Source: Prostheceraeus crozeri (Eukaryota; Platyhelminthes; Polycladida; Euryleptidae). From it: 64,000 nucleotides of DNA. The notes under the pieces were generated by a model, which saw nothing but the letters and a program-made list of their open reading frames with translations, ran no database searches and had not been told where the DNA came from. The stretch lies in assembly GCA_907163375.1 (NCBI GenBank), contig CAJQUW010005702.1, positions 62,001-126,000 of the forward strand, read 5' to 3'. The position numbers and the translations under genes were made by a program. Shown piece by piece: positions 44,826 to 64,000 of this stretch (position 1 is the first letter of the stretch; every line of letters starts with the position of its first letter).

Positions 44826-45102
44826 CTCAAATTTGAGAATTGCAATTTTCACCCTTAAAATCATGACCGTTCTAGGACACCGAAAATCATAAAAGTTGAA
44901 AATCTCAAATTTGAGAATTACAATTTTTACCTAGAAAATCATGACCGTTCCAGGACACCGAAAAAATCAGAAAAGTTAAGAATCTCAAATTTGAGAATTA
45001 CAATCGGGCGAAGCCCTAGAACCTTCGGTTCGATTTTCATTGCTTAAATCATGACCGTTCTAGGACACCGAAAATCATAAAAGTTGAAAATCTCAAATTT
45101 GA
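44826..45102 (+). repeat. Tandem units in TIR, one interrupted by a GC hairpin
   Basis: CTCAAATTTGAG begins units at 44826, 44904, 44984 and 45091, giving periods of 78, 80 and 107. Each unit has the order CTCAAATTTGAGAATT, AATCATGACCGTTC, AGGACACCGAAAA. The third unit is longer by almost exactly the 28-base GC-rich hairpin element at 45005-45032 plus 2 bases, so the first two units serve as empty-site comparisons. Confidence 0.88.
45005..45032 (+). repeat. 28-nt GC twin-hairpin element (TIR copy), flanked by AT
   Basis: The element starts with C, then GGGCGAAGCCC, then TA, then GAACCTTCGGTTC plus G. Both stems close on a three-base loop (GAA, then TTC). It contains GCGAAGC, a heptamer known to form an unusually stable DNA mini-hairpin. 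It is flanked by AT on both sides and sits within an otherwise AT-rich tandem unit. The same 28 bases occur in reverse complement inside the polymerase gene. Confidence 0.88.
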
Positions 45103-45179
45103 GAATTTCAAATTCATGAATTTTATCCATCTTTCAGGTTTTTAAAATATATCATGTGACTAAAAATATTTCTTTAAAA

Positions 45180-45338
45180 ATGGAAGAAACAAAAATGGAA
45201 GGAACTTCAGAAATGAATGAAACAAAAATGGAAGGAACAAAAGTGGAAGGAACTTCAGAAATGGAAGAAACAAAAGTGGAAGGGACCGCAAGAATATATC
45301 CTTCGTTATCTCAATTAAACTTTTACGGAGCAGCGTGA
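45180..45338 (+). pseudogene. Orphan 5' copy of the TIR-spanning membrane-protein gene
   Basis: The left TIR carries the first 46 or so codons of the membrane-protein gene that is full length at the right end. It includes the Glu/Thr/Met/Lys-rich repeats built on MEGT and VEGT and the segment ARIYPSLSQL. At 45320 the TIR ends, and the frame runs only a few unrelated residues (NFYGAA) to a stop. The frame also extends upstream to a GTG, but in a eukaryotic element the ATG at 45180 is the credible start. It may be transcribed from the duplicated promoter to give a 52-residue peptide, but nothing suggests that peptide is functional. Confidence 0.85.
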
Positions 45339-45479
45339 CTTCTTTCTTTCTTTCTCTCTCTCTCGATCCTGTCTGTTACAGGAATATTGTATTCACAATG
45401 ACATGCATTCTTTAAAACAATTGCTTGTCTTCAATGAGAATAATTCCCATATGCTTTTAATAGAATGACCTTGAACGCA

Positions 45480-45570
45480 AATGGAAAAATACACCAACTA
45501 TCGAACCATGTCGACAGCCATATCGACAAACTTTCTGACATCGGCGCGACAGTTGGTGTATTTTTCCATT
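45480..45570. repeat. Perfect 20-bp inverted repeat with structured 51-nt loop
   Basis: The arms AATGGAAAAATACACCAACT (45480-45499) and its exact complement (45551-45570) enclose 51 bases. Inside the loop TGTCGA and TCGACA form a second small stem, so a branched hairpin is possible. The sequence matches no repeat elsewhere in the window. A tiny terminal-inverted-repeat transposon remnant or a regulatory hairpin are both possible. Confidence 0.8.
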
Positions 45571-45798
45571 CAAGCAGTGTCGCATGAATGATTGTTATTG
45601 AAACCAAAATGAAGAGAAATGCTCATTCATTTCTCTTCTCTCTCATATGTCTATTGTGTTTAGATTGTATTTGTTCTTTTGTTCTCATAGTGTGAATGAG
45701 ATTTCACAACTCGCATTATGCGCTATTGTCTGTGATTTCCTTCACCCCTATCAGCTGAAACAATTTTAGCAGCTGCTACACGCTAATTCTTTTGAGAA

Positions 45799-46015
45799 AT
45801 GTCTGAAATAGATTTTATTCCATTTAAAATGAGAAACATCAGGGTCTTCCAAAAAATATACAGCAAACAAAACCACATTAAATTTCGATTTAAATGAGAT
45901 TGCTAAGCAATTGGGAATAAAGAATTTTCACATATTGATGAGTAATGAATTACTATTGATAAAAGATGTACGAAACACTGACTCAACTCATACAATGCAA
46001 CAATGTAACGTTTAA
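45799..46015 (+). pseudogene. Decayed 5' fragment of the adenain-like protease gene
   Basis: Bases from about 45850 to 45960 are a diverged duplicate of the start of the protease gene at 46263. The translated segment beginning at 45881 reads NFDLNEIAKQLGIKNFHILM, against NFDLKKIANQLGIKNFHVLM in the intact gene. An upstream ATG at 45799 opens a frame offset by one base from this segment, so a frameshift separates them. The downstream frame stops at 46015, long before any catalytic residue could be encoded. It is a non-functional relic of a local duplication or of a replaced older gene. Confidence 0.85.
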
Positions 46016-46049
46016 ATTTAGATTAAATTAAATCATTTCAAAATTGAAT

Positions 46050-46228
46050 AAGTAGTAAAGAAAGACATCATTAGAGACCAGTTTTAAATCAATACCCCCC
46101 CCCTTCTGACTAAGTAGTAAGGAAAGTCATCATTATAAAAATGTTTTAAATCAATACTCCTTCTGACTAAGTAGTAAGGAAAGACATCATTAGAGAACAG
46201 TTTTAAATCAATACCCCCCCTCTGACTT
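46050..46228 (+). repeat. Three tandem ~60-nt repeats with C-runs
   Basis: AAGTAGTAA(A/G)GAAAG(A/T)CATCATTA starts copies at 46050, 46112 and 46169. Each ends with GTTTTAAATCAATAC and a run of C followed by TTCTGACT. The C-run differs between copies (nine, none, seven). They lie directly upstream of the protease gene and may hold its promoter, but no clear motif proves this. Confidence 0.85.
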
Positions 46229-46262
46229 CTAGGGGTCCCTTAAGAAATTTTTTTATTATAAA

Positions 46263-46751
46263 ATGAGCAACATAAATGAGTTTTTGAAATTATATGGAAC
46301 ACAAACGACAACGAATTTCGACCTAAAGAAAATCGCAAATCAATTGGGAATAAAGAATTTTCATGTTCTAATGAGAGACAAATTACAATTGATCAAAAAT
46401 AAGCCAACAGGAACCTTCAGTTCCCGGAACAAAGTTCCATCAATAACTGTAAATTTCATAACAAATCTTCATACGTCAGATGAAAAAGGTGTACATTGGT
46501 CAGCAGGCGTTAAAAATCATCAGCAGAACTATTATTTTGATCGCCCGGAGGCTGAGAACTATTGGTTCGATTCATACGGTTTGTCCCCTACAAATGAAGT
46601 AAAAGAATTACTTGGAACGGGAACATACAATACATTTCAAATTCAAAAACCAGGAACTACCTATTGTGGACAATTATGTTTATACGTTTTGTACAAATTA
46701 CAAAAAGGAGTACCATTTCTTGATATTATGTTAGAGTTAAACAATCTATAA
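46263..46751 (+). CDS. Adenain-like virion maturation cysteine protease
   Basis: This is a protein of 162 residues related to adenovirus protease (family C5/ULP1-like), which cleaves capsid and core precursors during virion assembly. The catalytic elements are visible in the right order and spacing: His78 in GVHWSAG, Asp103 in YWFDSYG, Gln128 as oxyanion residue, and Cys135 in TYCGQLC. The Gln-to-Cys distance of seven matches adenain. The first 60 residues precede the core. Residues about 50-59 are encoded by a twin-hairpin GC-rich segment (46410-46437) flanked by CA, probably an in-frame insertion. The gene is the only rightward gene in the left part of the element and converges on the integrase gene with just 34 bases between stop codons. 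The start is the first ATG, after TTTTATTATAAA. It appears intact. Confidence 0.9.
   Translation: MSNINEFLKLYGTQTTTNFDLKKIANQLGIKNFHVLMRDKLQLIKNKPTGTFSSRNKVPSITVNFITNLHTSDEKGVHWSAGVKNHQQNYYFDRPEAENYWFDSYGLSPTNEVKELLGTGTYNTFQIQKPGTTYCGQLCLYVLYKLQKGVPFLDIMLELNNL
46410..46437 (+). repeat. GC twin-hairpin insert in protease gene, flanked by CA
   Basis: Two short stems follow each other: GGAAC/GTTCC around CTTCA, then GGAAC/GTTCC around AAA. The 28-base segment is flanked on both sides by CA and reads through in frame. The sequence is more diverged from the typical member than the polymerase copies, so membership rests on architecture, length and flanks. Confidence 0.6.
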
Positions 46752-46755
46752 CTCA

Positions 46756-46780
46756 AGCGAAGCTAGCTAAAGCGCCACCT
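46756..46780. repeat. Small GC hairpins between convergent genes
   Basis: AGCGAAGCT (46756-46764) contains the stable GCGAAGC hairpin heptamer and is followed by GCGCC and ACCTAAAGGT. It fills the 34-base gap between the stops of the protease and integrase genes, so it may also act in 3'-end formation. It is a partial member of the GC-hairpin family. Confidence 0.5.
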
Positions 46781-46785
46781 AAAGG

Positions 46786-48249
46786 TTAAAGCTCTGTTTT
46801 CTGTAATTCATTTTGATAAAAACGACCTCTGATATCTTCATCATCTAAATCTTTAATTTCGTAAGTAATCGGATAACTTTGATTTATTTTAGAAACTTCA
46901 AATATTTCTTTAGTCCAATAGCCAACAAAGCCTTTTTCAAATTTGTTCTTATATTTAAATATTCTAACTCTATCTCCAATTTTAAATTTCGGCTTAAGTT
47001 TCTGTAAATTCGGATTACTCTCATTTGAATTATTATTCTCGAATATTTTTTTTCTTATCAAATCAGGGTCGACAGAAGCATTCTTTGGAGTTTCTTCAAT
47101 ACCAGAATGAACTTTATTATTGTACTCATCTACAATTCCTGGTAATATTTTTAACCATTTCTGATTTCTTTGCTCAGTAAATTTCTTGAATAATTTATTT
47201 TTTAACGTCCGATTGAATCTTTCTATCACTACGGCCTTCCCTGCATTTTCAGTTGAATAAACAGTTTCAAATAATGGTTGAACGTTTCGGTTATAAAATT
47301 CCGATCCTTTATCAACAAACAATTTTCTTGGCTTTCTATTACTTTCTTTAAAGATTTCTTCAAACGCATATTTAACTGATAGACCACTTTTATTTTTTAA
47401 AGGTTTCACCCAAGCGTATCGTGTATATAAATCTATAACGGTCAATGCGTATTTATAATCAGAATCATTCGGCATATGAATAAGATCAGCACTCCAAATA
47501 TCATCTTTATTAAATACTTTTACTTTCAATAGATATTTCGGCTTTCTATATTCCTTGTGAATTTCGGACGCGTAGGTTCGAGCGTTGCTCTCAGAGTTAT
47601 TAGTTCGAGCGTTGCTCTCAGAGTTATTAGTTCGAGCGTTGCTCTCAGAGTTATTAGTTCGAGCGTTGCTCTCAGAGTTATTAGTTCGAGCGTTGCTCTC
47701 AGAGTTATTAGTTCGAGCGTTGCTCTCAGACAGCTTAGCTGTCGTTTCATTTAAACCCTGTCCGAATAATATTTTAGCTTGTAAAGCTTTCTTAACAAAC
47801 ATTCTTTCAATTTTTTCTCTAAATGTAGGATTCTGAATACTATCTAATTCTTGTATCATCTTCTTATCAGCTGCATGACGAGAACTTAGATCATGATTTC
47901 GATAAGCTAAATCATGCCTGTAAGCGGCGGCGTCTACTCTATTTATCGGTTCTTCACCTGGTTTCGGATTATTATTCTCATCTAGTCTTATATCTAATCG
48001 AGTTCCTGGACCGGTATATGAATGACCAGGAAGATGTTTTTCTTTCGAATATTTACTCCAAATAAATCCAGGAAAGTTTTCTAATGTTTTTTGTATGTCA
48101 CCACCGTAGGTAGTAGTCAAACTTTGTTTGTTGTCGTTACCTTCATAAATTTTACAATTTGAGTTTTTATTTTTGTTTAATAGATAATTCAATAAATCTA
48201 AATTAGAAATTTTTAATTTAGTTAAATTTTCGGAATTTGTAGAATTCAT
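46786..48249 (-). CDS. Phospholipase A2-like domain fused to a DDE integrase
   Basis: This is a 487-residue fusion. Residues about 70-160 are a parvovirus-type secreted PLA2 domain, with the Ca-binding loop YTGPGT (GPG 80-82) and the catalytic HDLAY (His112, Asp113). Such domains help virions breach endosomal membranes. Residues 174-225 are six copies of SESNARTNN. Residues about 235-487 are an integrase: catalytic core with Asp255 (WSADLIHM), Asp313 (FVDKGSEF) and Glu343 (VIERFNRTLK), then an SH3/chromo-like C-terminal domain (RVRIFKYKNKFEKGF to GRFYQNELQ). The usual N-terminal zinc domain of Polinton integrases is absent, and the second Asp to Glu gap is 29 residues rather than about 34-35. 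LFGQG (161-165) fits the adenain consensus (M/I/L)XGX-G and could separate the two activities. The fusion probably arose by deletion between two neighbouring genes. Integrase activity is uncertain. Confidence 0.88.
   Translation of the reverse strand: MNSTNSENLTKLKISNLDLLNYLLNKNKNSNCKIYEGNDNKQSLTTTYGGDIQKTLENFPGFIWSKYSKEKHLPGHSYTGPGTRLDIRLDENNNPKPGEEPINRVDAAAYRHDLAYRNHDLSSRHAADKKMIQELDSIQNPTFREKIERMFVKKALQAKILFGQGLNETTAKLSESNARTNNSESNARTNNSESNARTNNSESNARTNNSESNARTNNSESNARTYASEIHKEYRKPKYLLKVKVFNKDDIWSADLIHMPNDSDYKYALTVIDLYTRYAWVKPLKNKSGLSVKYAFEEIFKESNRKPRKLFVDKGSEFYNRNVQPLFETVYSTENAGKAVVIERFNRTLKNKLFKKFTEQRNQKWLKILPGIVDEYNNKVHSGIEETPKNASVDPDLIRKKIFENNNSNESNPNLQKLKPKFKIGDRVRIFKYKNKFEKGFVGYWTKEIFEVSKINQSYPITYEIKDLDDEDIRGRFYQNELQKTEL
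47576..47730 (-). repeat. 27-bp tandem repeat (5.7 copies) in the PLA2-integrase linker
   Basis: The unit starts GTTCGAGCGTTGCTCTCAGA and repeats at 47576, 47603, 47630, 47657, 47684 and 47711 (the last partial). It encodes SESNARTNN on the minus strand. Each unit contains GAGC-GTT-GCTC, a stem with a three-base loop like the GC-hairpin family. The copies are identical as far as I can see, which implies recent amplification. The other frames through it are open only because of the repeat and are not genes. Confidence 0.93.
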
Positions 48250-48318
48250 TTTAAAAGATAAAAAAAATTAAAAAGATAAAATAAAATAATTGTTTTACCG
48301 AAAAAGGTTCTGAGGTTA

Positions 48319-48860
48319 TTACCTTATCATACTAGGACTTAGATATATTCCAGAACCATCTTTAGTTTCTTTAATTTCAATTAAATCATCAACATTGTGG
48401 AGAATATTTTTAAGAACTCGTTTTCCTTCATCAACTAATTTTAATTTACTAATAAAATTATCTACTACTCCTTTTCCTTCGGGCGAAGCCCTGGAAGACA
48501 TCTCCGTTGACCCATGAACCGATGTCCCTTCACCCCTAGCAACTTTCTCTAACTCTCTGTTATGACGTTTTTGTTCTTCTAATGCTGCCTTCTCTGATTT
48601 TTTTTATTTACTTCTTGGACAATACCAGCTGTCCCACCTGCAACACTTCCTGCTGCTGCTATGCCACCTATTATTAGGGGAATTAATGGGAGAATCCCGC
48701 CATTCTTTTCTTCTTGTAATTGAATATTCTCTATCATTGGTTTACTTATGTAATACTTTTTTTTATTAATAGTAATAGTTTTAGGGGTATTTTTGTCAAC
48801 AATATTACGTAATTTTAATTCAACAGTTTTATTATTAATATTACTTTTCGCTTGCGACAT
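48319..48860 (-). CDS. Small virion-type protein with hydrophobic Gly/Ala segment, frameshifted
   Basis: Two overlapping-style frames form one gene. The 5' part (48579-48860, 93 codons) has a basic N-terminus, KYYISKPMIENIQL, then a membrane-active-looking stretch LPLIPLIIGGIAAAGS near residue 55. The 3' part continues in the frame used by 48319-48501, ending KDGSGIYLSPSMI after a conserved DEGKRVLKNIL block. Glycine-rich hydrophobic proteins of this kind are standard in Polintons and adintoviruses and have been compared with small adenovirus core or membrane-active proteins. That comparison is only by resemblance. The frames are offset by one base at an A8 run (plus-strand T-run 48598-48605). 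This could be a true indel, a sequencing error or a slippery -1 site. A 49-nt GC hairpin element lies in the 3' part and encodes the SSRASP segment. The gene sits between integrase and major capsid, leftward. Confidence 0.7.
48480..48528 (-). repeat. 49-nt GC hairpin element inside virion gene, flanked by TT
   Basis: It begins with the shared module CGGGCGAAGCCCTGGAAG and continues with a larger hairpin whose arms are GACATC and GATGTC. It is flanked by TT on each side. Forty-eight bases are identical to the copy at 50971-51018, which lies in an unrelated spacer. Element plus 2-bp flank equals 51 bases, so the reading frame is kept. Confidence 0.85.
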
Positions 48861-48887
48861 TTTTAATAAAAAAATTTAAAGCTAAGA

Positions 48888-49023
48888 ATTTTAAGTTGTC
48901 AAAATTTTTAATCTATTCTAGTTACCAAAAATTTTAAGTTACCAAAATTTTTAATCTATTCTAGTTATGAAAAATTTTTAAGTTAAGAATTTTTAATCTA
49001 TTCTAGTTATGAAAAAATTTTAA
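48888..49023 (-). repeat. ~43-bp tandem repeats derived from the capsid gene 3' end
   Basis: ATCTATTCTAGTTA recurs at 48911, 48954 and 48996 (periods 43 and 42), with AAAATTTTTAA between. The last unit merges with the end of the capsid gene (TTTATTCTAG at 49028-49037), so the repeats look like duplications of the capsid stop-codon region. They form the leader of the downstream small virion gene and may hold its promoter. Confidence 0.8.
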
Positions 49024-50358
49024 TTAATTTATTCTAGTCATCTTCCCATTAAGAATTTCAATAGAATATTTTACATCTTCTAGCAATAAACCATAAGCCA
49101 TCAATGAAGTTGTGGAATCTTTCTTTTCAATATTAATTGTTACATCACAACCAGTCTTGATAATATCTTCAGATTGTGCACTTAAATCGAAACAGAAAAT
49201 TGGATATAAATGTCTCCAATCTCCAGGAGTTAATTGTGGTTCAACTCCAAATTCTATACAAAGATTTCGATAAGAATCATATCCTTCCATAAATTGATTA
49301 TTGGTATCATCGAATCTTAATGGATCAATTGGATATCGAGTTTGATTTAATGAAACTTGTAAACTTCGAATTGTATTAATATGAAAAATATTATTGTTCT
49401 TATCAAAACTTGGAGAATTATTTCTTTGAAATGTTAGTAATAAATATCTTGGTGTATTCGCAGTTCTAGTAAAATGCCAGTTAAATCTTTGTTCGGAAAA
49501 AGTTACTGAACTAGCAGTTCTCTTTAGAAAATTAACTGGAATTGGTTTGTTAGTATTTAATCTTTTAGCAATAGCTGTTTCAATCTCTAAACTAGGAGTA
49601 ATATGCTTAATCCACCATTCAAGTCTATCAATTTTTAAATATGCTTTTTTTCCAGTCTTACCAAAAAAGATTAATTCATTATTTGCTGTACGATGAATTA
49701 TTAATTTAAATTTTAACTGATATGATATTTTAACATAATCTAAATATCCGAATAATGGAGACAATGACCAATTTACTGTTTGCTTACTTTTCTTGTTAAA
49801 TTCACGTCTTTCTTTATATGCAGTATTGTTTGTTTTATTTAAATGTTTTGCAATATTTTCTACATCTTTCGCAATTCCTGCGGCATCTGTTCCAGCGTGA
49901 GTTAAATCCTCAATAATTATGCCATCATTAGTATCAGGAAACCAACCTTCGATTTCATGCTTTTTATTATTTTCACCAATTATTACAAATCTAAGCATTG
50001 TATCAATTACACCTGGAGAATCACTTATTGTTTCTATATTTTGAGTTGCAACATCTAAACGCATTTGTGTAAATAATCTTGGAAAGAAATTATTCTCTAG
50101 TGTAATATTATCGGTATCTGGTAATGGTGTTGTAAAATTAGCATCAGAATATAGAGAATATTCACAGTGTAAAAATGAATCAGGTAAATATAAATAACTC
50201 TGCTGATTATCAACTTCAAAGATTAAATCTCCTCCAGTATTTACTCTACTGGAAGATCCGGGATTCATAGCAATTCTTATATAGTCATTCTTTTTTTGAT
50301 TATAACTGACGAACGGAGGATCGTCTAATCTAAATTTATTTTCGATAAGCGAAGACAT
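49024..50358 (-). CDS. Double jelly-roll major capsid protein
   Basis: This protein of 444 residues has the Polinton/adintovirus hexon-type pattern that forms the icosahedral shell. Recognisable landmarks are a first barrel with GGDLIFEVDNQQSYLYLPDS (residues 42-61) and FFPRLFTQMRLDV (91-103), and the turn region WSLSPLFGYLDYVK (197-210). A conserved block WWIKHITPSLEIETAIAKRL (248-267) follows, then RYLLLTFQRNN (304-314), and the C-terminal signature YPIFCFDLSAQSE (385-397) leading to AYGLLLEDVKYSIE (421-434). The length fits the family (about 430-550). There is no signal peptide or membrane segment. The leader before the ATG holds AAATTTTTTTTTC and a TTATAAAA box-like stretch. It lies in the leftward structural block between the two small virion genes. 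It is intact, with no hairpin insertion. Confidence 0.85.
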   Translation of the reverse strand: MSSLIENKFRLDDPPFVSYNQKKNDYIRIAMNPGSSSRVNTGGDLIFEVDNQQSYLYLPDSFLHCEYSLYSDANFTTPLPDTDNITLENNFFPRLFTQMRLDVATQNIETISDSPGVIDTMLRFVIIGENNKKHEIEGWFPDTNDGIIIEDLTHAGTDAAGIAKDVENIAKHLNKTNNTAYKERREFNKKSKQTVNWSLSPLFGYLDYVKISYQLKFKLIIHRTANNELIFFGKTGKKAYLKIDRLEWWIKHITPSLEIETAIAKRLNTNKPIPVNFLKRTASSVTFSEQRFNWHFTRTANTPRYLLLTFQRNNSPSFDKNNNIFHINTIRSLQVSLNQTRYPIDPLRFDDTNNQFMEGYDSYRNLCIEFGVEPQLTPGDWRHLYPIFCFDLSAQSEDIIKTGCDVTINIEKKDSTTSLMAYGLLLEDVKYSIEILNGKMTRIN

Positions 50359-50429
50359 TTTTATAAAAAATAATTTGACTTTTTGTTTTTCTCACAGATA
50401 GAAAAAAAAATTTTACTAAAATATAATTT

Positions 50430-50930
50430 TTAGAATTTTGCTAGACCAGCTCCGCTACAGCTTTGCTGGTTAGACCGAAGGTTGCTGCTCACGCCATTAC
50501 CTCTTATTTCTTCAATTGTTTTTTTATTATTTTTATTTTCAATATGTTTACTATCACCATCAACAGCTATGTTAGCAATTTTATTTTTTGCTTCATCTGA
50601 AAGTTTTTTTAATTTTTTTAGTTCTTCAGAATCATTCCTAAGTTTACGAATAGCTTCTAGTTGTTTTAATTCGTTTTGAGACTTAACAGCATTTGATATT
50701 GCACTAGCTGTACTACCTATAGCAGCTGCTCCTTTTGCGGCAGATGAAATCAAATCTTTATTATTTTTAATTAAGTTAACAATACTACCAATACCAGAAA
50801 AGATGCCATCCCCTTCTTTTTGAACGGTTTCTCTATTATCATAATGATAAACAGGATTCATACGTGGTTCATGAGAAATTTTTTGATTTGAAGCAAAATG
50901 TTTAAGATTGTGTTTATAAATTATAGGCAT
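50430..50930 (-). CDS. Minor virion-type protein with amphipathic Gly/Ala segment
   Basis: This is a protein of 166 residues. A basic, aromatic N-terminus with PVYHYDNRETVQKEGDG leads to GIFSGIGSIVNLIKNN and the alanine-rich stretch AAKGAAAIGSTASAIS (residues 41-80), which looks like an amphipathic membrane-active helix pair. A charged coiled coil follows (85-115). Small proteins of this architecture next to the capsid gene are typical of Polintons and recall adenovirus VI or X proteins in function, which is inference only. IRGNG at 142-146 fits an adenain cleavage site. The last 20 residues, including a lone Cys158, are encoded by GC-rich hairpin sequence (50440-50490), so the original C-terminus was probably altered by an insertion. 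Confidence 0.68.
   Translation of the reverse strand: MPIIYKHNLKHFASNQKISHEPRMNPVYHYDNRETVQKEGDGIFSGIGSIVNLIKNNKDLISSAAKGAAAIGSTASAISNAVKSQNELKQLEAIRKLRNDSEELKKLKKLSDEAKNKIANIAVDGDSKHIENKNNKKTIEEIRGNGVSSNLRSNQQSCSGAGLAKF
50440..50490 (-). repeat. GC hairpin cluster at the 3' end of the minor virion gene
   Basis: It holds CAGCTTTGCTG (50458-50468), a stem with a TTT loop, and ACCGAAGGT (50474-50482), a stem with a GAA loop. ACCAGC and GCTGGT form a wider pair around the first. Architecture and loop type match the GC-hairpin family, in a locus otherwise rich in A and T. It sets the last codons of the gene. Confidence 0.6.
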
Positions 50931-50970
50931 TTTTTAGTAATAAATTTGACTTTTAGGAAAAATATAAATA

Positions 50971-51018
50971 CGGGCGAAGCCCTGGAAGACATCTCCGTTG
51001 ACCCATGAACCGATGTCC
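50971..51018 (+). repeat. 48-nt GC hairpin element in spacer
   Basis: It is identical over 48 bases to the element inside the frameshifted virion gene (48480-48527). It starts CGGGCGAAGCCCTGGAAG and ends ACCGATGTCC. It lies between the 57-residue gene and the 166-residue gene, where it is surrounded by AT-only sequence. A TA on the left matches a TA two bases past the shared end. This copy shows that the element spreads as a unit independent of gene context. Confidence 0.85.
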
Positions 51019-51033
51019 ATTATAAAAAAATGT

Positions 51034-51207
51034 TTATTTTTTGTTCTTAACTTTTGCAGATTGCGTTTTTGGTTTAACTTTATCAGGAACCAAACCTGCA
51101 TCAATCATTCTTTTTATTCTATGATTTTCTTTCATAATATTTCTTTCTTTTAGTAACTCTTCTAATTGTTTAATTCTTTTAAAATTATTAGCTCTAATTT
51201 TATCCAT
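51034..51207 (-). CDS. 57-residue partial paralogue of the conserved 273-aa protein
   Basis: The protein begins MDKIRANNFKRIKQLEELLK and ends with a Lys-rich tail (VKPKTQSAKVKNKK). About 30 of its first 42 residues match the N-terminus of the 273-residue protein at 60055 (MDKVRADNFKRIKQLDELIK), with the similarity ending around residue 42. So the first helical segment of that protein exists twice in the element, once alone. It is predicted to be a charged helix. The start and leader (TTTTTAAAAATTATATTT) resemble those of its neighbours, suggesting it is expressed with the leftward structural block. The role is unknown. It could compete with or join the larger paralogue. Confidence 0.75.
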   Translation of the reverse strand: MDKIRANNFKRIKQLEELLKERNIMKENHRIKRMIDAGLVPDKVKPKTQSAKVKNKK

Positions 51208-58300: not shown

Positions 58301-59916
58301 TTGAAAACTTTCGTGATATGTGTTTAGAATATTACGGAATAGATCCATGTTATTGTTATTCTACACCAGGTTTAACATGGTTAGCAGGATTAAAACATAC
58401 TGGTGTTCAAGCCGATGGCTCTAGGACAAAGTCCGTTAAACTTAAACATTATAAAGAAAATACATATGATAAATTATTATTTTTTGAATCTGGAATTAGA
58501 GGTGGTGTTTCATCAGTTTTAGGTAATAGATATGTTAAATGTTATAATAAGAAAGTAAATCCACAAGAATATGGAATAATGAAACCTTTATCTCCAGAAG
58601 AAAGCGATCAGTTTATAAAATTGTTTAATCAAAATATAGAAGGACTTATATCAAATGAAGATAGTCAAGCAGCAGTTGATGAAATCATGAGAGAAAACTA
58701 TTTATTATATTATGATTTTAATAGCTTATATTCTTCTTGCATGATACAAGAATTACCAACAGGTGAAATGACATGGTGTAATAATCTAGATTATCAAAGA
58801 ACATATGATGGTGAAAATAATTTTGGTTATGTATATGAAGTTGATTTAGTATACCCTGATTATATAAAAGACGCAACAAAATATTATCCTTTCTGTCCAG
58901 AAAATAAAATTCCCAATATAGAAGATTTTTCAGATTATCAAAAATCTATAATGCCGAAAAAATACAGACCAACAAAAAAACTTATGTTAACAAAAAGCAA
59001 TAAAGGAAAGTATGTTGTTGAAGGAAGAATGCTAGATTGGTATTTAGATCATGGTATGATTCTCACCAAAATACATCGAAAACTAGAGTATAGAAAATCT
59101 AAATGGTTAAAAAATTATATAGAGTTCAATATTGAAAAACGTAAAATAGCTAAAAGAAATAAAGATGATTTTGGAAACGTTTTCTTCAAATTAATGAATA
59201 ATGCATTTTATGGTAAGACTTTAGAAAATGTGCGTAATAGACAAAATATTGAAATAGTTTATGATAGAGATAGATTTCAAAATTTAACAAGGAAACCTAC
59301 ATATAAAAGAACTACTAGATTCAGTGATGAACTTTGTGCTGTTCATCTAAGAAGAAGCATTGTAAAACATGATAAGTTTAATTTCATTGGTTTCACTATA
59401 TTAGAATTAGCTAAACTATTTATGTATAGTTTTATATATGATTATTTAGCACCTGCTTATGGCAAAAACTATAAATTACACTTTACAGATACCGATTCTA
59501 TTTTCTTAGAATTAACAGTACCATATGGTTCTTCACTTGATAAAGAAATTAATAAAATAAAAGATATTATTCATCCTTCTGATTTATGTAAAGTAAAAGA
59601 TGAATTAGAAGGAAATGAAGATTTCATAACAGAAGCTATATTTTTAAAATCTAAATGTTACTGTTATGATACAACTAATAATATTAAAACACATAAAACA
59701 TTGAAAGGAATTTCAAAGGCATCAGTAGCTAATCAAATAACATTTCAAGATTATAAAAATGCATTATTTAATAATGAAATAAAAACAGCATATAATTATA
59801 GACTTAATTCAAAGAAACATAAAATGTATTTAAAAGAAGAACATAAATTAGCATTAGATCCATTTGATGATAAAAGAAAAATTTTACCTGATGGAATAAC
59901 TACTTTACCTTTTTAA
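55336..59916 (+). CDS. Protein-primed family B DNA polymerase with extra N-terminal domains
   Basis: The replicase of the element, 1526 residues. It has a C2H2 finger (residues 6-28), a low-complexity region with two hairpin-encoded inserts (82-135), and the N-terminal block usual in Polinton polymerases (LINIKNEDDYCFLWSIIAHL, 266-285, function unknown). A coiled coil of about 130 residues (425-555) follows, then a C2HC finger (590-610). The exonuclease motifs are Exo I CDFEAY (Asp644, Glu646), Exo II YNGSKYD (830-836) and Exo III YLQID (977-981). A zinc/HNH-like segment with CYYCGK and DHDHLNGLYRGAAH (773-812) lies between Exo I and II. The polymerase motifs are A DFNSLY (1127-1132), B KLMNNAFYG (1285-1293) and C TDTDS (1384-1388). 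All catalytic residues are present. Four GC-hairpin inserts are read in frame (near 82, 120-135, 655 and 1025). The coiled coil and inserts explain its length, above the usual 1000-1300. Confidence 0.93.
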   Translation: MKKFYCVLCEKKLQTKRSYQSHLQSKMHLQNVERVDEGNILKLNSYKNYLETLPTDIKVKKIFDDYSHSEYKKVFNSEDEHVRTEGSRASPVSDGRYLFSDTDEFNEIDEFNEIDEFDEAVHGASKMSSRASPETDIKYLFNETVEYNETDKTFSDILTNFSNIFKKSFKCYMNVEVLYTKNGSDGIPKEIIQGHFTKSQEIHNVNNIQPIFQSMILKLENCIIEAQLSESGWRFVKILSKKIVIDKYKNNTGGSYVPLPFSSPQLINIKNEDDYCFLWSIIAHLHPAKYHKERLSHYNKEEYIKEFDLSDGLHEFPYDYNRLIKFHKKNKNLIEVNVFELNVNYVSIGKITPLYSDSKKFYLNNKNLCQSEIVYNDRGNYMHHNIFYQGNIICTEKFELVKTLSPIMINHNNYKGRTDDYNYKYSSLSSEYQQKLENLNKSLEKCKIDYQQQTKMLLQEYHHKYQNKIETIQKLNEENNKKLNEENNEENETNQKINECLKKCLQQYKEQYDKEYIYQLQILNQNYYQNTFNITKEINETHEIYKDEFEKLEQSKQPAQANILYYQGHFILCKDVSIFTKTSDNKNFPCLQCMTSFRTLEEMNRHLENCQQNEAVQNTFPKDDYLEYNKWYFKNKVPFTIYCDFEAYNVNMTQNQTESSRASPDSEDYNSENYNSEKSAPEKSAPGKSSAEQSKEKYLFEQKPLCWGMYIHSNYPNLFKSEYFQYYGEDSSEMFTKKVEELQNYFSQLLETNIPMLPLTDEERKEFDDEINCYYCGKGFTNKYKTGKGRYLDKVKDHDHLNGLYRGAAHNSCNLNANKFKYNFVPLYFYNGSKYDFHLVMKDLFSSEKLQQQKINVLCKTEEEYFSMQLGCIRILDAFRFFTPYSLDVMGKSLKSEQCKILNKYNLKPLKGIFPYEYLTGDFNSVNKIMEEEQLPPINKFKSTLKQSQLSDEDYAEAEKNWRELNCKTMYDYTMKYLQIDVLILADLFENFRDMCLEYYGIDPCYCYSTPGLTWLAGLKHTGVQADGSRTKSVKLKHYKENTYDKLLFFESGIRGGVSSVLGNRYVKCYNKKVNPQEYGIMKPLSPEESDQFIKLFNQNIEGLISNEDSQAAVDEIMRENYLLYYDFNSLYSSCMIQELPTGEMTWCNNLDYQRTYDGENNFGYVYEVDLVYPDYIKDATKYYPFCPENKIPNIEDFSDYQKSIMPKKYRPTKKLMLTKSNKGKYVVEGRMLDWYLDHGMILTKIHRKLEYRKSKWLKNYIEFNIEKRKIAKRNKDDFGNVFFKLMNNAFYGKTLENVRNRQNIEIVYDRDRFQNLTRKPTYKRTTRFSDELCAVHLRRSIVKHDKFNFIGFTILELAKLFMYSFIYDYLAPAYGKNYKLHFTDTDSIFLELTVPYGSSLDKEINKIKDIIHPSDLCKVKDELEGNEDFITEAIFLKSKCYCYDTTNNIKTHKTLKGISKASVANQITFQDYKNALFNNEIKTAYNYRLNSKKHKMYLKEEHKLALDPFDDKRKILPDGITTLPF
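55582..55609 (-). repeat. 28-nt GC twin-hairpin in polymerase gene (copy 1), flanked by TA
   Basis: It is the exact reverse complement of the 28 bases at 45005-45032 in the TIR, flanked by TA on both sides. Element plus flank equals 30 bases. On the coding strand it reads RTEGSRASP without stop. It lies in the poorly conserved N-terminal region of the polymerase. Confidence 0.9.
55693..55735 (-). repeat. GC hairpin element in polymerase gene (copy 2)
   Basis: The last 17 bases, TTCCAGGGCTTCGCCCG, are the shared module of the family. Upstream lie a stem GGCATC/GATGTC around AAA and a smaller stem CCGT/ACGG. If the element is taken as 43 bases, AA flanks both sides and the net insertion is 45 bases. 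The limits are less certain than for the 28-base copies. It encodes the segment around KMSSRASP. Confidence 0.7.
57301..57328 (-). repeat. 28-nt GC twin-hairpin in polymerase gene (copy 3), flanked by AT
   Basis: Twenty-three of 28 positions match copy 1, including AGGGCTTC and the terminal CCCG. It is flanked by AT on both sides. It is read in the same frame and orientation as copy 1 (TESSRASP). It lies just after the Exo I motif, in a spacer-like segment followed by KSAPEKSAPGKS repeats. Confidence 0.82.
58408..58435 (-). repeat. 28-nt GC twin-hairpin in polymerase gene (copy 4), flanked by TT
   Basis: Nineteen of 28 positions match copy 1, and TT flanks it on both sides. The stems are kept by paired changes: GGAC/GTCC replaces GGGC/GCCC and GCC/GGC replaces ACC/GGT. 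It is read in the same frame (QADGSRTKS) between the conserved TGV and LLFFESGIRGG blocks, where typical Polinton polymerases are shorter. Confidence 0.75.
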
Positions 59917-60054
59917 TTTTCTAATTTCTATTTTCTAAATATAACAATATAACAATATAAAATATTATAAAATAATATAACATAAAATAATATAACATAA
60001 AATAATAATATAAAATAATAATATAAAATAATAATATAAAATTAACATATAAAA
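59917..60054. other. AT-only spacer with short tandem repeats
   Basis: This holds repeats of ATAACAATATAA, then AATAATATAACATAAA and AATAATAATATAAAAT up to the next ATG. It is the probable leader of the 273-residue gene. No conserved motif beyond A/T tracts. Confidence 0.6.
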
Positions 60055-60876
60055 ATGGATAAAGTTAGAGCTGATAATTTTAAAAGAATAAAACAATTAG
60101 ACGAATTAATAAAACAAAGAAATATTATGAAAGAAAATCATCTTCAACATAGAATGATAAAAGCTGGTATTCAATCTGATATGTTTGAACAATTAAAATT
60201 AACTGAAGAAGTAAAAACTGATTATGAAAAAACTGTCGAACCATTTAAAACTCTTGAAAAAGAACTTAATGAAAAACGTGTTGATATTGCGGATCCTATA
60301 CTTAAAACACTATTAGATGACTATGGTTTGTTAGAGGCAAACATAGATAAAAAATTACCAAAATCTATGTTATTCGAACATTCTACTTTCTTTTTAGATA
60401 AAAAATTATTTGCAAGATTTTATCTTGGTGGTAAAGAAATATTTCCACAACCTTTACGGGGATTAATTTTTACTCCAGATAAAAAACCTATTAGTTTAGA
60501 TAGAAATTTTGTTGATCTTTTAAGAGGAGCAGATTTAAAAAATTATGCTGTAGAAGATCTAATAAAATATAAAACTATATTAGATAGAGTAGGTGTAGTA
60601 AAAACTCTTGAACGTTATAAACAATTAGAAAATTTATTATCAACGGGAGTTAAAGTAGGAAAAGGTTTATCTGAAAAACAGAAAACAGAAACAACTGTAT
60701 TCTTACCAGATGATCCACAAGAATTACTAAATAGATTAAATATTTTAATATCTGCAATAAAAGAAGGACATAATTCTAGTTTCAATGAAATTCATGCTAT
60801 ATTGAAAAGACTGTTAGAAAAGAAGATTCTAAATGAAGAAGATTATAAAAGTGTAGCTGAAATATGTTGTTTCTAA
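60055..60876 (+). CDS. Conserved Polinton protein of unknown function
   Basis: The protein has 273 residues. It starts with a charged helical segment (MDKVRADNFKRIKQLDELIK) that is duplicated as the 57-residue protein at 51034. The middle has a compact block FFLDKKLFARFYLGGKEIF (112-130) then LRGLIFTPDKKPISLDRNF, a pattern seen in Polinton proteins of unknown function. The C-terminus LPDDPQELLNRLNILISAIK with SSFNEIHAILKRLLEKKIL is a strongly conserved Polinton signature known to me only as hypothetical. There is no signal peptide, membrane segment or catalytic motif. Its place between polymerase and penton-like genes and its conservation suggest a core virion or replication role. It appears intact. 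Confidence 0.75.
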   Translation: MDKVRADNFKRIKQLDELIKQRNIMKENHLQHRMIKAGIQSDMFEQLKLTEEVKTDYEKTVEPFKTLEKELNEKRVDIADPILKTLLDDYGLLEANIDKKLPKSMLFEHSTFFLDKKLFARFYLGGKEIFPQPLRGLIFTPDKKPISLDRNFVDLLRGADLKNYAVEDLIKYKTILDRVGVVKTLERYKQLENLLSTGVKVGKGLSEKQKTETTVFLPDDPQELLNRLNILISAIKEGHNSSFNEIHAILKRLLEKKILNEEDYKSVAEICCF

Positions 60877-60980
60877 TTTTTATTTATGATTCTTATTTAT
60901 GATTTTTATCTATGATTTTTATTTATGATTTTTATCTACGATTTTTATCTATAATATTTATTTAATTTTTTAGTTTAAAA
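60877..60980. other. Spacer of 16-bp tandem repeats
   Basis: It holds about six copies of TTTTTAT(T/C)TA(T/C)GAT ahead of the penton-like gene. It is simple AT-rich sequence; leader function is assumed from position only. Confidence 0.65.
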
Positions 60981-61784
60981 ATGTCTTCGAGAGAATTATC
61001 ATCAGCAGATTTAGACAAAATTAATAATCATTTAGAAAATTTGACAGAGATTTTGGGTTCATCAAAATTTAGTACGACGTTAAAAATTATAACAACTACT
61101 TCATCACACACTTGTAATTTAGAACCCATTCTACATTTGGAACAAAATAAAAATTATCAAATTGCATTGACTAGTTTCTCTACATTTAACACTATTCAAA
61201 ACGTTATCAAAGATGTGAATGATCAATTTAGATATTCTACTGATAAAGGCAAAACATGGAAAATACTAACTTTTCTTCCTGGTTCTTACGAAGTTGAATC
61301 AATATCAAATGAAATTAAGAGACATTTAGGGATACCATTTAAAGATAAGAAACAATTACATTTTGCAGTTGAACCGGCAGTTAATAAATTTTCTCTTACT
61401 TTAGACGAAAATCATCAAGTTGATTTTAATCATGATAGATCATTGTCAAAGCTATTAGGATTTAATAAACAAACTTATAGTCAAGGTTATCATTTAAGTG
61501 AGAAGATTCCAAAAATAACTGAAATAAATTCAATTGTTGTACATTGTGACATTATTGAAGGAGGTTATATAAATGGTAAATTATCAAATTTAATATTCAG
61601 TTTTCCAGCTTTTACTGTGCCCATTGGTTATAGATTAAATGTAATTCCACAAACATTAATATATTTCCCTATTACAAGAAAAACTATTAACAACATTAAC
61701 ATTAGAATCACTGATGAGAAAGGACAAGAAATAAATTTTGGAGGCGAAGAGATTATGATAGATCTTTTGGTTCGAGAGGTATAA
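60981..61784 (+). CDS. Penton-like minor capsid protein
   Basis: The protein has 267 residues and the pattern of Polinton/adintovirus penton-base homologues, single jelly-roll proteins that fill the capsid vertices. Landmarks are LEQNKNYQIALTSFSTFNTI (residues 54-73, early strand pair), then WKILTFLPGSYEVESISNEI (92-111), and LSKLLGFNKQTY (155-166). The C-terminal strands GYINGKLSNLIFSFPAFTVP and INNINIRITDEKGQEINFGG are also present. The length is typical. There is no membrane segment. The stop codon lies inside the first of three 21-bp repeats. It sits just upstream of the packaging ATPase in the same orientation, an order common in Polintons. It appears intact. Confidence 0.8.
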   Translation: MSSRELSSADLDKINNHLENLTEILGSSKFSTTLKIITTTSSHTCNLEPILHLEQNKNYQIALTSFSTFNTIQNVIKDVNDQFRYSTDKGKTWKILTFLPGSYEVESISNEIKRHLGIPFKDKKQLHFAVEPAVNKFSLTLDENHQVDFNHDRSLSKLLGFNKQTYSQGYHLSEKIPKITEINSIVVHCDIIEGGYINGKLSNLIFSFPAFTVPIGYRLNVIPQTLIYFPITRKTINNINIRITDEKGQEINFGGEEIMIDLLVREV

Positions 61785-61843
61785 ACTCCCGTTCGGGAGG
61801 TATAAACTCCCGTTCGAGAGGTATAAACTCCCACGCGAAGCTA
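61770..61843 (+). repeat. Three 21-bp repeats carrying the penton gene stop, plus GC hairpin
   Basis: GTTCG(A/G)GAGGTATAAACTCCC occurs at 61770, 61791 and 61812. Each copy contains the same GAGGTATAA (stop) end as the gene, so the gene's last codons were tandemly duplicated. CTCCCGTTCGGGAG forms a palindrome across the repeat junction. ACGCGAAGCTAG (61833-61844) follows and contains the GCGAAGC hairpin core. Confidence 0.85.
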
Positions 61844-61912
61844 GAAAAGTTTAATTTTCTTCTTCTTCTTTAAAAATAAAAACAAAATAAAAATAAATTT
61901 TTTTATTAAAAA

Positions 61913-62677
61913 ATGAGTGTAATGTCTTTAAATAAAAAAAAACTTAAATTTAATCATCATTCAAATTTATCTAATAAAGTTTTGTCAGTTATTTGTGGAA
62001 GATCGGGTTGTGGAAAAACATATCTATTATTTAAAATTTTAACAACTCCAAATTTTTTGGATTATAACAATCTTATAATTTATACAACAACAGCAGAACA
62101 ACCTGTCTATCAATTTTTAAAATATGGATTTGAAAATAATCTTAAAAAAACAGCAATTGCTTCCCTATTCGAAGAATACGAAAAATCTGAATATGAAGAA
62201 GAAATAAGTTCATGGTGTGAGGAAGCAGTAGAAAATACTCAGTTAGTAGAATCTAATAAAAATAACCATATAAAGATACAATTAACAGATGATAGTGGTA
62301 ATATGCAAGATCCTAGTAAACTAGATAAAACAATGAAACATTGTGTAATTTTTGATGATTGTGTTAATGATAGAAATCAGTCAGTTCAGAGAAATTATTT
62401 TACAAGAGGTAGACATAATAACTGTAGTGTTTTTTATTTAACACAAAGTATGTATTCATTAGACGGAAGTGTTATTAGAAAGAATGCAAATATATTTATA
62501 CTATTTGAAATAAATGCAAGAAACTTAAGTGATTTGCTAAGAGATTTATGTATAAGAGATAAAGATGAATTTAAACAATCGTGTAATAATGCTTGGGCAA
62601 AAGATTATGGATTCATTACAATTAATATTGATAAAAAAATTCATGATAGAGTTATCGAACAATTGTTCTCTGACTAG
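61913..62677 (+). CDS. A32/FtsK-HerA-type genome packaging ATPase
   Basis: The protein has 254 residues and is the canonical Polinton packaging ATPase, which pumps DNA into capsids. Walker A is GRSGCGKT (29-36), Walker B CVIFDDC (144-150), and the characteristic block RNYFTRGRHNNCSVFYLTQS (160-179) contains the likely arginine finger and sensor, followed by YSLDGSVIRKNAN. The length is standard, and there is no membrane segment. It is the last gene of the rightward block and ends just before a cluster of three GC hairpins. The leader is the usual AAAATAAATTTTTTTATTAAAA. It appears intact. Confidence 0.9.
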   Translation: MSVMSLNKKKLKFNHHSNLSNKVLSVICGRSGCGKTYLLFKILTTPNFLDYNNLIIYTTTAEQPVYQFLKYGFENNLKKTAIASLFEEYEKSEYEEEISSWCEEAVENTQLVESNKNNHIKIQLTDDSGNMQDPSKLDKTMKHCVIFDDCVNDRNQSVQRNYFTRGRHNNCSVFYLTQSMYSLDGSVIRKNANIFILFEINARNLSDLLRDLCIRDKDEFKQSCNNAWAKDYGFITINIDKKIHDRVIEQLFSD

Positions 62678-62714
62678 GCTTCGCCTCGAGGGGCTTTGCC
62701 CCGACTGAAAGTCG
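62676..62714. repeat. Cluster of three GC hairpins after the packaging ATPase gene
   Basis: Three stems with three-base loops follow in a row: AGGCTTCGCCT (62676-62686), GGGGCTTTGCCCC (62690-62702) and CGACTGAAAGTCG (62702-62714). Bases 62687-62714 alone make a 28-base unit starting CGA and ending TCG. The cluster begins at the stop codon of the ATPase gene and may serve as a transcription or 3'-end signal as well as being a hairpin-family insertion. Confidence 0.8.
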
Positions 62715-62907
62715 ATCGAAGATTTGTTTACCGAGTGATAAAAAATATACAACATAGGGGTATAATATTTTTTTTAAAATATAATATTTGAATTTTGCGG
62801 TAACATTGGAATACAGCAAAAACATTTTACTGAACAAATTATTTTTTTATTGCTTTGTTGTCTGATATCTTTTCGTTCAAAGGTTTCTCGTTTAAAGTTT
62901 TCCTGTT
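62715..62907. other. Intergenic region between convergent genes
   Basis: AT-rich, with no independent gene. Its right part (about 62836-62907), read on the minus strand, continues the frame of the membrane-protein gene past its stop for some two dozen codons with similar Lys/Thr/Leu/Asn-rich repeats, which suggests this is a lost C-terminus. Confidence 0.55.
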
Positions 62908-63666
62908 TTAAGTTTTGTTTAATAAAGTTTTGTTTAATAAAGTTTTGCTTAAATTTTCGCTTAAAGTTTTTAGCTCTTCTAAAAAAATTTTGTCATTTTC
63001 TTCATTAGAAATTTTACCATCAGTAAAAGTTTTACCACCCTGTTTATTCTTATCACCAACTTTTTCTGACTGTAATTTAAATGATATTTTATTTACTTCA
63101 TTAGCTATTTGATCAAATTTTTCAATCTCATCTAACGTAATAACATTATCATCACATACTCTTTGAAAGTAGTAATGTAGTTTATCATAGACTTCTTTAA
63201 TATGTAAATGCTTAGTTTTTAATGATTTTCGTTTCTTAGTTATTAAAGATTTATCTAACATTGTAACAAGTGAAGTTGTAAAAACACCCGTACCTGTTAA
63301 AGCTGTAGCAACTACTGGAATTACTAAAACACCTGAAGATATAACAATTGTTAAAGCACCTAAACTTATTGTTAAGAATATGCCAATTCCTTGTGTTACA
63401 TTCTTAACTTTAGTCCATCTCTTTCTTAATTTTTTATAATGCTCTAATCTTAATAATAATTGAGATTCCTTATCTTTCATATACCTTACTCTATCCTTGT
63501 GTTTTTCTATATTTAATTCACTTATTTTTAATTGAGATAACGAAGGATATATTCTTGCGGTCCCTTCCACTTTTGTTTCTTCCATTTCTGAAGTTCCTTC
63601 CACTTTTGTTCCTTCCATTTTTGTTTCATTCATTTCTGAAGTTCCTTCCATTTTTGTTTCTTCCAT
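62908..63666 (-). CDS. Two-segment membrane protein starting inside the right TIR
   Basis: The protein has 252 residues counted from the first ATG. The frame opens 24 bases upstream at a GTG that is not a credible eukaryotic start. The N-terminus is a Glu/Thr/Met/Lys repeat region (MEGT, VEGT). After a coiled coil, residues about 93-137 hold two adjoining membrane segments (VTQGIGIFLTISLGALTIVI, then VLVIPVVATALTG). A conserved-looking helical region KHLHIKEVYDKLHYYFQRVC with VITLDEIEKF follows. Proteins of this layout (hydrophobic hairpin, then a helical region) recur in Polintons without a known function. The C-terminus has TLLNKTLLNKT and ends in a TAA within that repeat; similar repeats continue in frame beyond it, so the stop may be premature. 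The promoter and first 46 codons lie in the TIR, so a truncated copy exists at the left end. Confidence 0.75.
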   Translation of the reverse strand: MEETKMEGTSEMNETKMEGTKVEGTSEMEETKVEGTARIYPSLSQLKISELNIEKHKDRVRYMKDKESQLLLRLEHYKKLRKRWTKVKNVTQGIGIFLTISLGALTIVISSGVLVIPVVATALTGTGVFTTSLVTMLDKSLITKKRKSLKTKHLHIKEVYDKLHYYFQRVCDDNVITLDEIEKFDQIANEVNKISFKLQSEKVGDKNKQGGKTFTDGKISNEENDKIFLEELKTLSENLSKTLLNKTLLNKT

Positions 63667-64000
63667 TTTTAAAGAAATATTTTTAGTCACATGATATATT
63701 TTAAAAACCTGAAAGATGGATAAAATTCATGAATTTGAAATTCTCAAATTTGAGATTTTCAACTTTTATGATTTTCGGTGTCCTAGAACGGTCATGATTT
63801 AAGCAATGAAAATCGAACCGAAGGTTCTAGGGCTTCGCCCGATTGTAATTCTCAAATTTGAGATTCTTAACTTTTCTGATTTTTTCGGTGTCCTGGAACG
63901 GTCATGATTTTCAAGGTAAAAATTGTAATTCTCAAATTTGAGATTTTCAACTTTTATGATTTTCGGTGTCCTAGAACGGTCATGATTTTAAGGGTGAAAA
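63527..64000 (-). repeat. Right terminal inverted repeat (partial)
   Basis: It matches the reverse complement of 44846-45319 across its full visible length with no net indel and very few or no differences, for example a C/T change in the pyrimidine before AGGACACCG between internal units is conserved in both copies. The outer ~300 bases, corresponding to 44548-44845, lie beyond the window. It contains the second copy of the 28-nt hairpin element and the start of the membrane-protein gene. Confidence 0.93.
63814..63841 (-). repeat. 28-nt GC twin-hairpin element (right TIR copy)
   Basis: This is the TIR partner of the copy at 45005-45032 with identical sequence and AT flanks, so the insertion predates the last homogenisation of the two TIRs. 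Confidence 0.9.

Follow-up and report, generated by a model that had tools for sequence, protein, structure and literature searches.

Results

A Polinton rich in double hairpins

The window analyzed here, a stretch of 64,000 nucleotides from contig CAJQUW010005702.1 of the polyclad flatworm Prostheceraeus crozeri, contains a single Polinton at positions 44846-64000. Hallmarks of a Polinton/Maverick are present: terminal inverted repeats (TIRs), an rve integrase (in an open reading frame (ORF) that also carries a phospholipase A2-like domain), the DNA polymerase pPolB, a Pox_A32-type ATPase together with a second A32-like ORF, and a double jelly-roll capsid protein. Scattered through this Polinton and its relatives in the host genome are short GC-rich double hairpins, which are probably copies of selfish, non-autonomous mobile mini-elements of about 22-40 bp. 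The main features of the carrier are:

44846-45319, plus strand: left TIR, 474 nt, 100% complementary to 63527-64000
49024-50358, minus strand: double jelly-roll capsid protein (PF21738); no hairpin under the strict rule given below in the window copy
55336-59916, plus strand: pPolB, 1526 aa (PF03175); four elements in the window copy, further sites in other copies
63527-64000, minus strand: right TIR, reaching the window end

A first-pass annotation of the sequence had pointed to GC-rich hairpins with 3-nt loops at 14 loci, and reading all 14 confirmed the observation. Under a strict rule that asked for a 3-nt loop and a perfect stem of 4 bp or more with three or more G/C, positions 44561-64000 hold 26 hairpins; 30 dinucleotide shuffles gave a mean of 1.83 and never more than 4. 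One tandem array (47580-47725) contributes six of the 26, the TIR hairpins are counted in both TIRs, and the hairpins at 45712, 48688, and 58059 look like chance. Loops of 4 and 6 nt were at background in the same region (2 versus 1.77 and 2 versus 1.53), and loops of 5, 7, and 8 nt were raised (7, 5, and 8 versus 1.57-1.90). A hairpin satisfying the strict rule is found at 10 of the 14 annotated loci; the remainder are single mini-hairpins with stems of 2-3 bp (46756, 55240, and 61833) and a decayed copy (57301). The description of the hairpins as often standing two in a row holds for many loci but not for all, because singles exist and the locus at 62676 is a triple. The elements and related structures in the window are:

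45005-45032, minus strand: double-hairpin element, main form, 28 bp; flanks AT/AT; empty in locus L011
46407-46437, plus strand: 31-bp double hairpin in a 162-aa ORF; flanks CA/CA; empty in L025, filled in L027 and L028
46542-46569, plus strand: decayed 28-bp element in the 162-aa ORF; flanks AT/AT; empty in L028
46756-46764, plus strand: single mini-hairpin AGC-GAA-GCT
47576-47730, minus strand: 27-bp unit repeated in tandem 5.7 times at 100% identity, each unit with a GAGC-GTT-GCTC hairpin; in frame in the integrase/phospholipase A2-like ORF
48480-48527, minus strand: 48-bp variant whose first hairpin has 15 bp inserted into its loop
50445-50482, minus strand: three short hairpins in a row, close to where ORF 50430-50930 ends
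50971-51018, minus strand: second copy of the 48-bp variant, in a spacer
55240-55253, plus strand: one short hairpin, in a spacer; in L025 this place is occupied by a decayed full element, flanks AT/AT
55582-55609, plus strand: same 28-mer as at 45005, in pPolB; flanks TA/TA; in frame as RTEGSRASP
55699-55735, plus strand: 37-bp variant in pPolB, GACATC-type first hairpin followed by GGGCTTCGCCC; flanks TA/AA
57301-57328, plus strand: decayed main form in pPolB; flanks AT/AT
58408-58435, plus strand: 28-bp double hairpin in pPolB, AGCC-GAT-GGCT and GGAC-AAA-GTCC; flanks TT/TT
61770-61841, plus strand: units of 21 bp in tandem, together with a GCGAAGC mini-hairpin, around the stop of ORF 60981-61784; copies vary in the number of units
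62676-62714, plus strand: triple hairpin AGGC-TTC-GCCT, GGGGC-TTT-GCCCC, CGACT-GAA-AGTCG, where the second A32-like ORF ends
63814-63841, plus strand: same 28-mer, in the right TIR; flanks AT/AT

The 28-mer CGGGCGAAGCCCTAGAACCTTCGGTTCG is present in both TIRs and is found again, identical in every letter, within pPolB (55582-55609). The 27-bp array at 47576-47730 is presumably the product of a very recent expansion.

Exact insertion and target duplication

Comparison of Polinton copies showed that the gaps between them consist of one double hairpin plus a duplicated dinucleotide, typically 28 bp + 2 bp but with other lengths too, and that the target dinucleotides are AT, TA, TT, and CA. The left TIR has empty sites built in: its internal repeats near 44845 and 44925 lack an insert and the third copy at 45005 has one, so that the empty sequences GCAAT/TTTCA and ACAAT/TTTTA can be set against the filled ACAAT-28 bp-ATTTTCA. 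Identical dinucleotides flank seven of the eight double elements of 28-37 bp in the window (AT four times, TA, TT, and CA once each), and the eighth is flanked by TA/AA. The two TIR copies, both among the AT cases, represent one event, and element boundaries were set from empty sites where any existed.

Presence and absence at the same position were seen in pPolB. An alignment of ∼200 bp of the gene in 31 sequences (the window and 30 copies) contains three sites, each filled in some sequences and empty in others. The site at 55582 is cleanly empty in L002 and lacks the element in L005, L014, L022, and L023 as well (5 of 30 copies), and other copies have a GACATC variant there. At 55699 other copies show the GAACC form or are empty (GCCGTAACAGA). 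GAACC-type and GACATC-type first hairpins both occur before the same GGGCTTCGCCC at all three sites, one hairpin being exchanged while the other stays, and in L019 the two types lie back to back at the first site. The GACATC-type variant also occupies site 57301 in L006, L010, L011, and L020. Among 11 other copies, all four filled/empty combinations were found at the neighboring sites 58089 and 58102, and site 58408 was filled in three and empty in eight. Two polymerase relatives from metagenomes (P0049 and P0050) lack exactly the ten residues VQADGSRTKS at 58408.

One sequence at many sites

With up to five mismatches allowed, the main element occurs 65 times in loci L001-L048 and the window. 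These occurrences fall at nine sites, namely the TIR (internal repeats counted as one site), 55240 (in L025), 55582, 55699, 55770, 57301, near 57385 (in L010 and L024), 60856, and one that could not be placed on the window (in L018 and L020). A 27-bp form of the same element lies at 45161 in L027, and the decayed element at 46542, in which 19 of 28 letters agree with the main element on comparison by eye, looks like an old copy of it. A second element, CGGCTAAAGCC..GCTCCG, has nine occurrences at three sites (44780, about 49035, and about 56790), its two copies in L019 being one site doubled by a tandem repeat. At site 60856, L022 and L019 show a 37-bp tandem duplication of the hairpin element.

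Abundance and apparent confinement to Polintons

The annotation had proposed a dispersed family of twin-hairpin mini-elements in an AT-rich Polinton, a description that the data support, and had named the lack of further host copies as grounds for giving it up. As counted for one 11-mer, such copies are plentiful. The exact 11-mer GGGCGAAGCCC occurs 13,298 times (6516 + 6782) in the host assembly (2.049 Gb in 14,165 contigs; sampled GC 0.39), versus 36 (19 + 17) for the reversed control. In 20 sampled loci around GGGCGAAGCCC matches, 42 of 44 motifs lie within homology to the window Polinton; one of the loci, L021, has only 4% homology to it. We left the GGGCGAAGCCC matches of L009 and L015, which lie outside Polinton homology, out of the family because the motif there is the center of a longer palindrome of unrelated sequence.

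Three sets of host DNA were compared with first-order Markov resamplings (rather than the dinucleotide shuffles used for the window). In 130.8 kb of Polinton-like DNA there were 169 3-nt-loop hairpins versus 10.9 and 54 doubles versus 0. In 64 kb taken by place from long contigs as 16 stretches there were 36 hairpins versus 30.5 and no 3-nt-loop double, although this control is not pure host DNA because L057 is Polinton over about 3.1 kb. The third set, 65.9 kb of DNA flanking the Polinton-like regions, is considered under “Discussion.” The Polinton part of L057 (positions 1-3130) matches pieces of the window at 77-92% and is devoid of GGGCGAAGCCC; its presence in one of 16 stretches hints that Polintons are a sizeable part of the host genome.

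In a collection of viral contigs, searches with the capsid protein, the ATPase, and a 37-row capsid alignment gave no relatives, and the exact 28-mer gave 0 matches. A 17-base half produced 13 hits, located in DNA of 46-69% GC, which we took as chance.

A family defined by form

Stems vary widely in sequence (GGGC, GAACC, GACATC, CAGTC, GGAGC, AGCC, GACGGC, and others), and within one copy the first hairpin is unlike the second (GAACCGAAGGTTC ta GGGCTTCGCCC, for example). The loop and its closing base pair are more uniform. The closing pair is C-G, with the C lying 5′ of the loop, for 32 of 40 unit types versus 16 of 38 hairpins from flanking DNA and 15 of 34 from DNA taken by place (Fisher p = 0.0018 for unit types versus by-place DNA). 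Loops of the form GNA are found in 17 of 40 types (114 of 176 copies) versus 5 of 38 flanking and 1 of 34 by-place hairpins (p = 7e-5 for the latter). As the annotation had it, most loops are GAA or TTC (90 of the 169 hairpins in the 130.8 kb of Polinton-like DNA). Work on d(GCGAAGC) is said to have established C(GNA)G as an especially stable single-stranded DNA mini-hairpin. Single-strand DNA folds predicted for eight sequences contained two or three hairpins, one of them with a bulge.

Hairpins inside reading frames

Many copies lie within genes. The intact inserts at 12 coding sites all have lengths that are multiples of three (24, 30, 33, 36, or 39 bp), as follows:

46407: 33 bp
46542: 30 bp
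50827: 36 bp
55582, 55699, and 55770: 30 or 39 bp
57715: 24 bp
58089, 58102, and 58408: 30 bp
58784: 39 bp
59684: 36 bp

The reading frame is shared as well. The sequence GGGCTTCGCCC occurs at 73 places in L001-L048, 38 of them in a locally open frame. At 36 of these 38 the only open frame is the one that reads RASP, at seven coding sites as judged by their flanks; the other two places are one with two open frames and one, in a TIR copy, where a different frame is open. This half of the element is thus read in one frame at seven of seven coding sites, which is unlikely by chance because the main element has four stop-free frames of six. Judged from the sequences, the single shared frame would be a second sign of selection. 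The old inserts at 46542 and 57301 have decayed, which speaks against a function at those sites.

At 48480 in the window the RASP frame differs from the frame in which the ORF starts. The small ORF 48579-48860 in this region (48322-48860) stops, and beyond its end the sequence stays open in a different frame, the one containing the RASP-frame hairpin. The gene at 48322-48860 looks broken in this copy.

A second carrier

A different DNA polymerase B is encoded at L026:7544-9001, with PF03175 matched in two separate pieces and an in-frame row of hairpins of the type GGGAC-TTT-GTCCC; this polymerase copy has a stop within the gene. A like gene at L012:6825-8999, broken off at the end of the locus, has a hairpin row of other make-up. 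The occurrence of a second polymerase with a hairpin row means that the hairpin habit is probably not confined to one Polinton family.

For comparison with organelle DNA, 4.3 kb of the COX1 contig of the assembly was found to contain one 3-nt-loop hairpin and no double. The contig, of 100,701 bp (G000:C6227; L078), holds COX1 and a COX2-like frame, and its open frame around COX1 extends well upstream of the conserved start. Among the best 120 of 7999 scored candidates, this COX1 was closest to three metagenome proteins (91, 78, and 76%), followed by those of the polyclads Pseudostylochus intermedius and Stylochus stellae (71%). This contig may be a large mitochondrial DNA, a tandem assembly, or a nuclear copy.

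Surroundings of the elements

The 162-aa ORF that holds two of the elements (46263-46751) has no Pfam match; its motif suggests an adenain-type protease. The N-terminal part of pPolB gives zinc-finger matches. To the left of the Polinton, positions 1-44500 are an AT-rich satellite with units of about 29-35 bp. Its strand orientation flips near 25 kb, where GC skew changes from about +0.25 to -0.3, so that the satellite next to the Polinton consists of two halves in inverted orientation. In L021 (positions 1-4600) about 4.6 kb of nearly pure A adjoins a Polinton end, either as true sequence or as an assembly artefact.

Discussion

Copies of this Polinton differ by exact insertions of one double hairpin with a 2-bp duplication; the same sequence stands at many sites and is present or absent between similar copies. 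Exchange of single hairpins, tandem duplication, decay, and in-frame survival in genes are seen as well. The filled/empty pairs, the 2-bp duplication, the loop preference, the scarcity outside Polintons in the samples, and the second polymerase with a hairpin row are new beyond the first-pass annotation. A search of the literature found no report of hairpin mini-elements in Polintons, with most subscription journals outside its coverage, and the word “Maverick” does not appear in the accessible part of the Prostheceraeus crozieri genome paper (PMC9469890).

How the elements might move

The elements would move and exchange parts as hairpins folded from single-stranded DNA. A typical copy has two short perfect stems with 3-base loops and is inserted at an A/T-rich dinucleotide with duplication of 2 bp of target. 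Polintons are thought to copy themselves through protein-primed strand displacement, and intrinsic strand displacement is reported for a transposon-derived polymerase. Long single strands would be exposed during such replication. Hairpins closed by C(GNA)G would fold readily on the exposed strands, where they could be cleaved or skipped over and then copied to another place. The duplication, the loop preference, and the confinement to Polintons would all follow from a structure-specific cut staggered by 2 nt and then repaired by fold-back or template switching. The single-strand route would also explain why the elements are present in Polintons and nearly absent elsewhere in the samples, and why similar elements occur in mitochondria. 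Within genes, copies would persist where the added peptide (for example RTEGSRASP) is short, polar, and in frame.

Several observations weigh against this interpretation. Neither the 48-bp copies (48480 and 50971) nor the triple at 62676 show a clear 2-bp duplication, the two sides of site 55770 differ in most filled copies (TA or TG versus TT), and further gap lengths were found, including 28, 29, 31, 35, 37, 38, 49, 61, 91, and 112, whose sources are spacers, arrays, decayed copies, or ambiguous alignments. Given their common ancestry, neither sites nor copies are independent, and the target-site statistics rest on sampled loci. Near the end of a gene, seven codons before the stop (60856), inserts are of 31 and 38 bp; inserts of 31 and 39 bp occur in a spacer (45161); and single bases have been lost at coding sites in L020, L040, and L044. 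The multiples of three may partly reflect element length as well as selection, because the TIR insert, too, measures 28 + 2 = 30. The 130.8 kb of Polinton-like DNA is likewise enriched in hairpins with 5-nt loops (40 versus 8.8), and the 65.9 kb of flanking DNA outside window homology is itself enriched (50 versus 20.1, with two doubles), partly through the second polymerase-bearing element. The fold z-scores of the eight sequences are modest, from -0.9 to -2.9. The genome-wide count covers one 11-mer, and the 20 loci around its matches were drawn from the first contigs of the list. Selection on RNA, or an origin at the RNA level, may be involved. Finally, the putative single-strand route draws on loop chemistry and location.

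Alternative explanations

An unlikely alternative is that the elements resemble miniature inverted-repeat transposable elements (MITEs), moved by a host or Polinton transposase or integrase that acts on terminal C...G ends with a 2-bp staggered cut, the hairpins being shrunken terminal repeats. Such movement would fit the exact insertion, the 2-bp duplication, and the occurrence of the same sequence at nine sites. However, the two hairpins within a copy are unlike, so the element as a whole lacks the inverted repeat that would be expected of a Tc1/mariner-like MITE, and the stems vary widely while the loop and closing pair are kept. The targets are AT, TT, and CA as well as TA, not TA alone, and the elements are scarce in sampled non-Polinton DNA of the same nucleus.

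It is more doubtful still that the elements hardly move and have spread mainly by gene conversion or recombination between Polinton copies after a few insertions. Exchange between copies does take place, as the swapping of first hairpins at shared sites and the four combinations at 58089/58102 show, but it accounts poorly for nine sites of the main element and three of a second one, which have unlike flanks and in most cases a dinucleotide duplication of their own.

Least credible is the idea that the hairpins are functional (in transcript ends, packaging, or regulation) and kept by selection, with copy differences representing losses, since the location of some in spacers or at gene ends (50445, 61770, and 62676), and the ending of transcripts at hairpins in some giant viruses, stand against the many copies inside reading frames, the variable presence at aligned sites, the two metagenome relatives exactly empty at 58408, and the decay of older copies (46542 and 57301). 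A role as terminators, prompted by the hairpins at gene ends, was not adopted as a general explanation because so many hairpins are inside reading frames and their presence is variable.

Relation to known hairpin elements

Double-hairpin elements (DHEs) as a kind are already known from organelle DNA; a study of Allomyces is said to deal with mitochondrial ones. The DHEs of fungal mitochondria (Allomyces, Schizosaccharomyces) consist, like the mobile elements proposed here, of two adjacent GC-rich stems and are small, dispersed, and thought to be mobile (PMC10085805). Those of fission yeasts have two hairpins and occur in 1-14 copies in mitochondrial DNA, mostly between genes or in rRNA genes (PMC10085805). 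The flatworm elements share with them the unit of two neighboring GC-rich hairpins and the presence or absence at the same site in relatives. Unlike the DHEs, they reside in nuclear Polintons rather than in mitochondrial DNA, one of their stems is found 13,298 times, and many copies are in frame in protein genes.

The GC42 clusters of yeast mitochondria have a putative 2-nt (AG) target duplication, diversify rapidly, and merge and shuffle palindromic units (PMC4478555). A 2-nt duplication was found here too (in seven of eight window doubles and in the site alignments), at AT, TA, TT, and CA rather than AG and in a nuclear, virus-like carrier; the comparison is one of behavior, not of sequence. 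In Volvox carteri, short palindromic repeats occur in all three genomes, the organelle copies in noncoding DNA and the nuclear copies attributed to organelle transfer (PMC2670323). These are likewise short, dispersed hairpin repeats, for which the available part of the report gives no link to Polintons or coding frames (PMC2670323). The hairpin elements of sponge mitochondria have had several origins (PMC2800124).

In their defining features the flatworm elements behave as DHEs and GC clusters do, without belonging to either of those mitochondrial families. Rickettsia palindromic elements are longer, bacterial palindromes that lie in frame inside protein genes. Presence within reading frames is shared with the flatworm elements, again as a comparison of behavior, whereas the latter measure about 22-40 bp and have two stems with 3-nt loops. 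The analogies to Rickettsia elements and yeast GC clusters drawn in the annotation are apt as comparisons of behavior: insertion is exact and duplicates a short target, the elements lie in frame within genes, and hairpin units are shuffled.

Significance

How organellar double hairpins and GC clusters move is still debated, partly because mitochondria offer few copies; the yeast paper weighs several routes of GC cluster movement without deciding between them (PMC4478555). A nuclear genome with thousands of copies of one stem in related Polintons provides many natural filled and empty sites, at which target choice, duplication length, hairpin exchange, and the role of the loop are measurable. 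Tentatively, and with less confidence than we place in the mobile elements themselves, we suggest that a hairpin of ∼11 nt with a C(GNA)G loop might itself be the unit that is copied and recombined on the displaced strand of protein-primed replicons. DHEs, GC clusters, and the Polinton elements might then be one physical strategy that operates, with no dedicated transposase, wherever long single-stranded DNA is exposed. If this is true, such units would be among the smallest mobile elements of a nuclear genome. The proposed link between loop type and a strand-displacement replicon gives a testable rule for finding such elements in other places. For the flatworm, the picture would be that of a virus-like transposon parasitized by far smaller elements that survive in its genes by way of short in-frame peptides, and these peptides would be a source of new protein segments.

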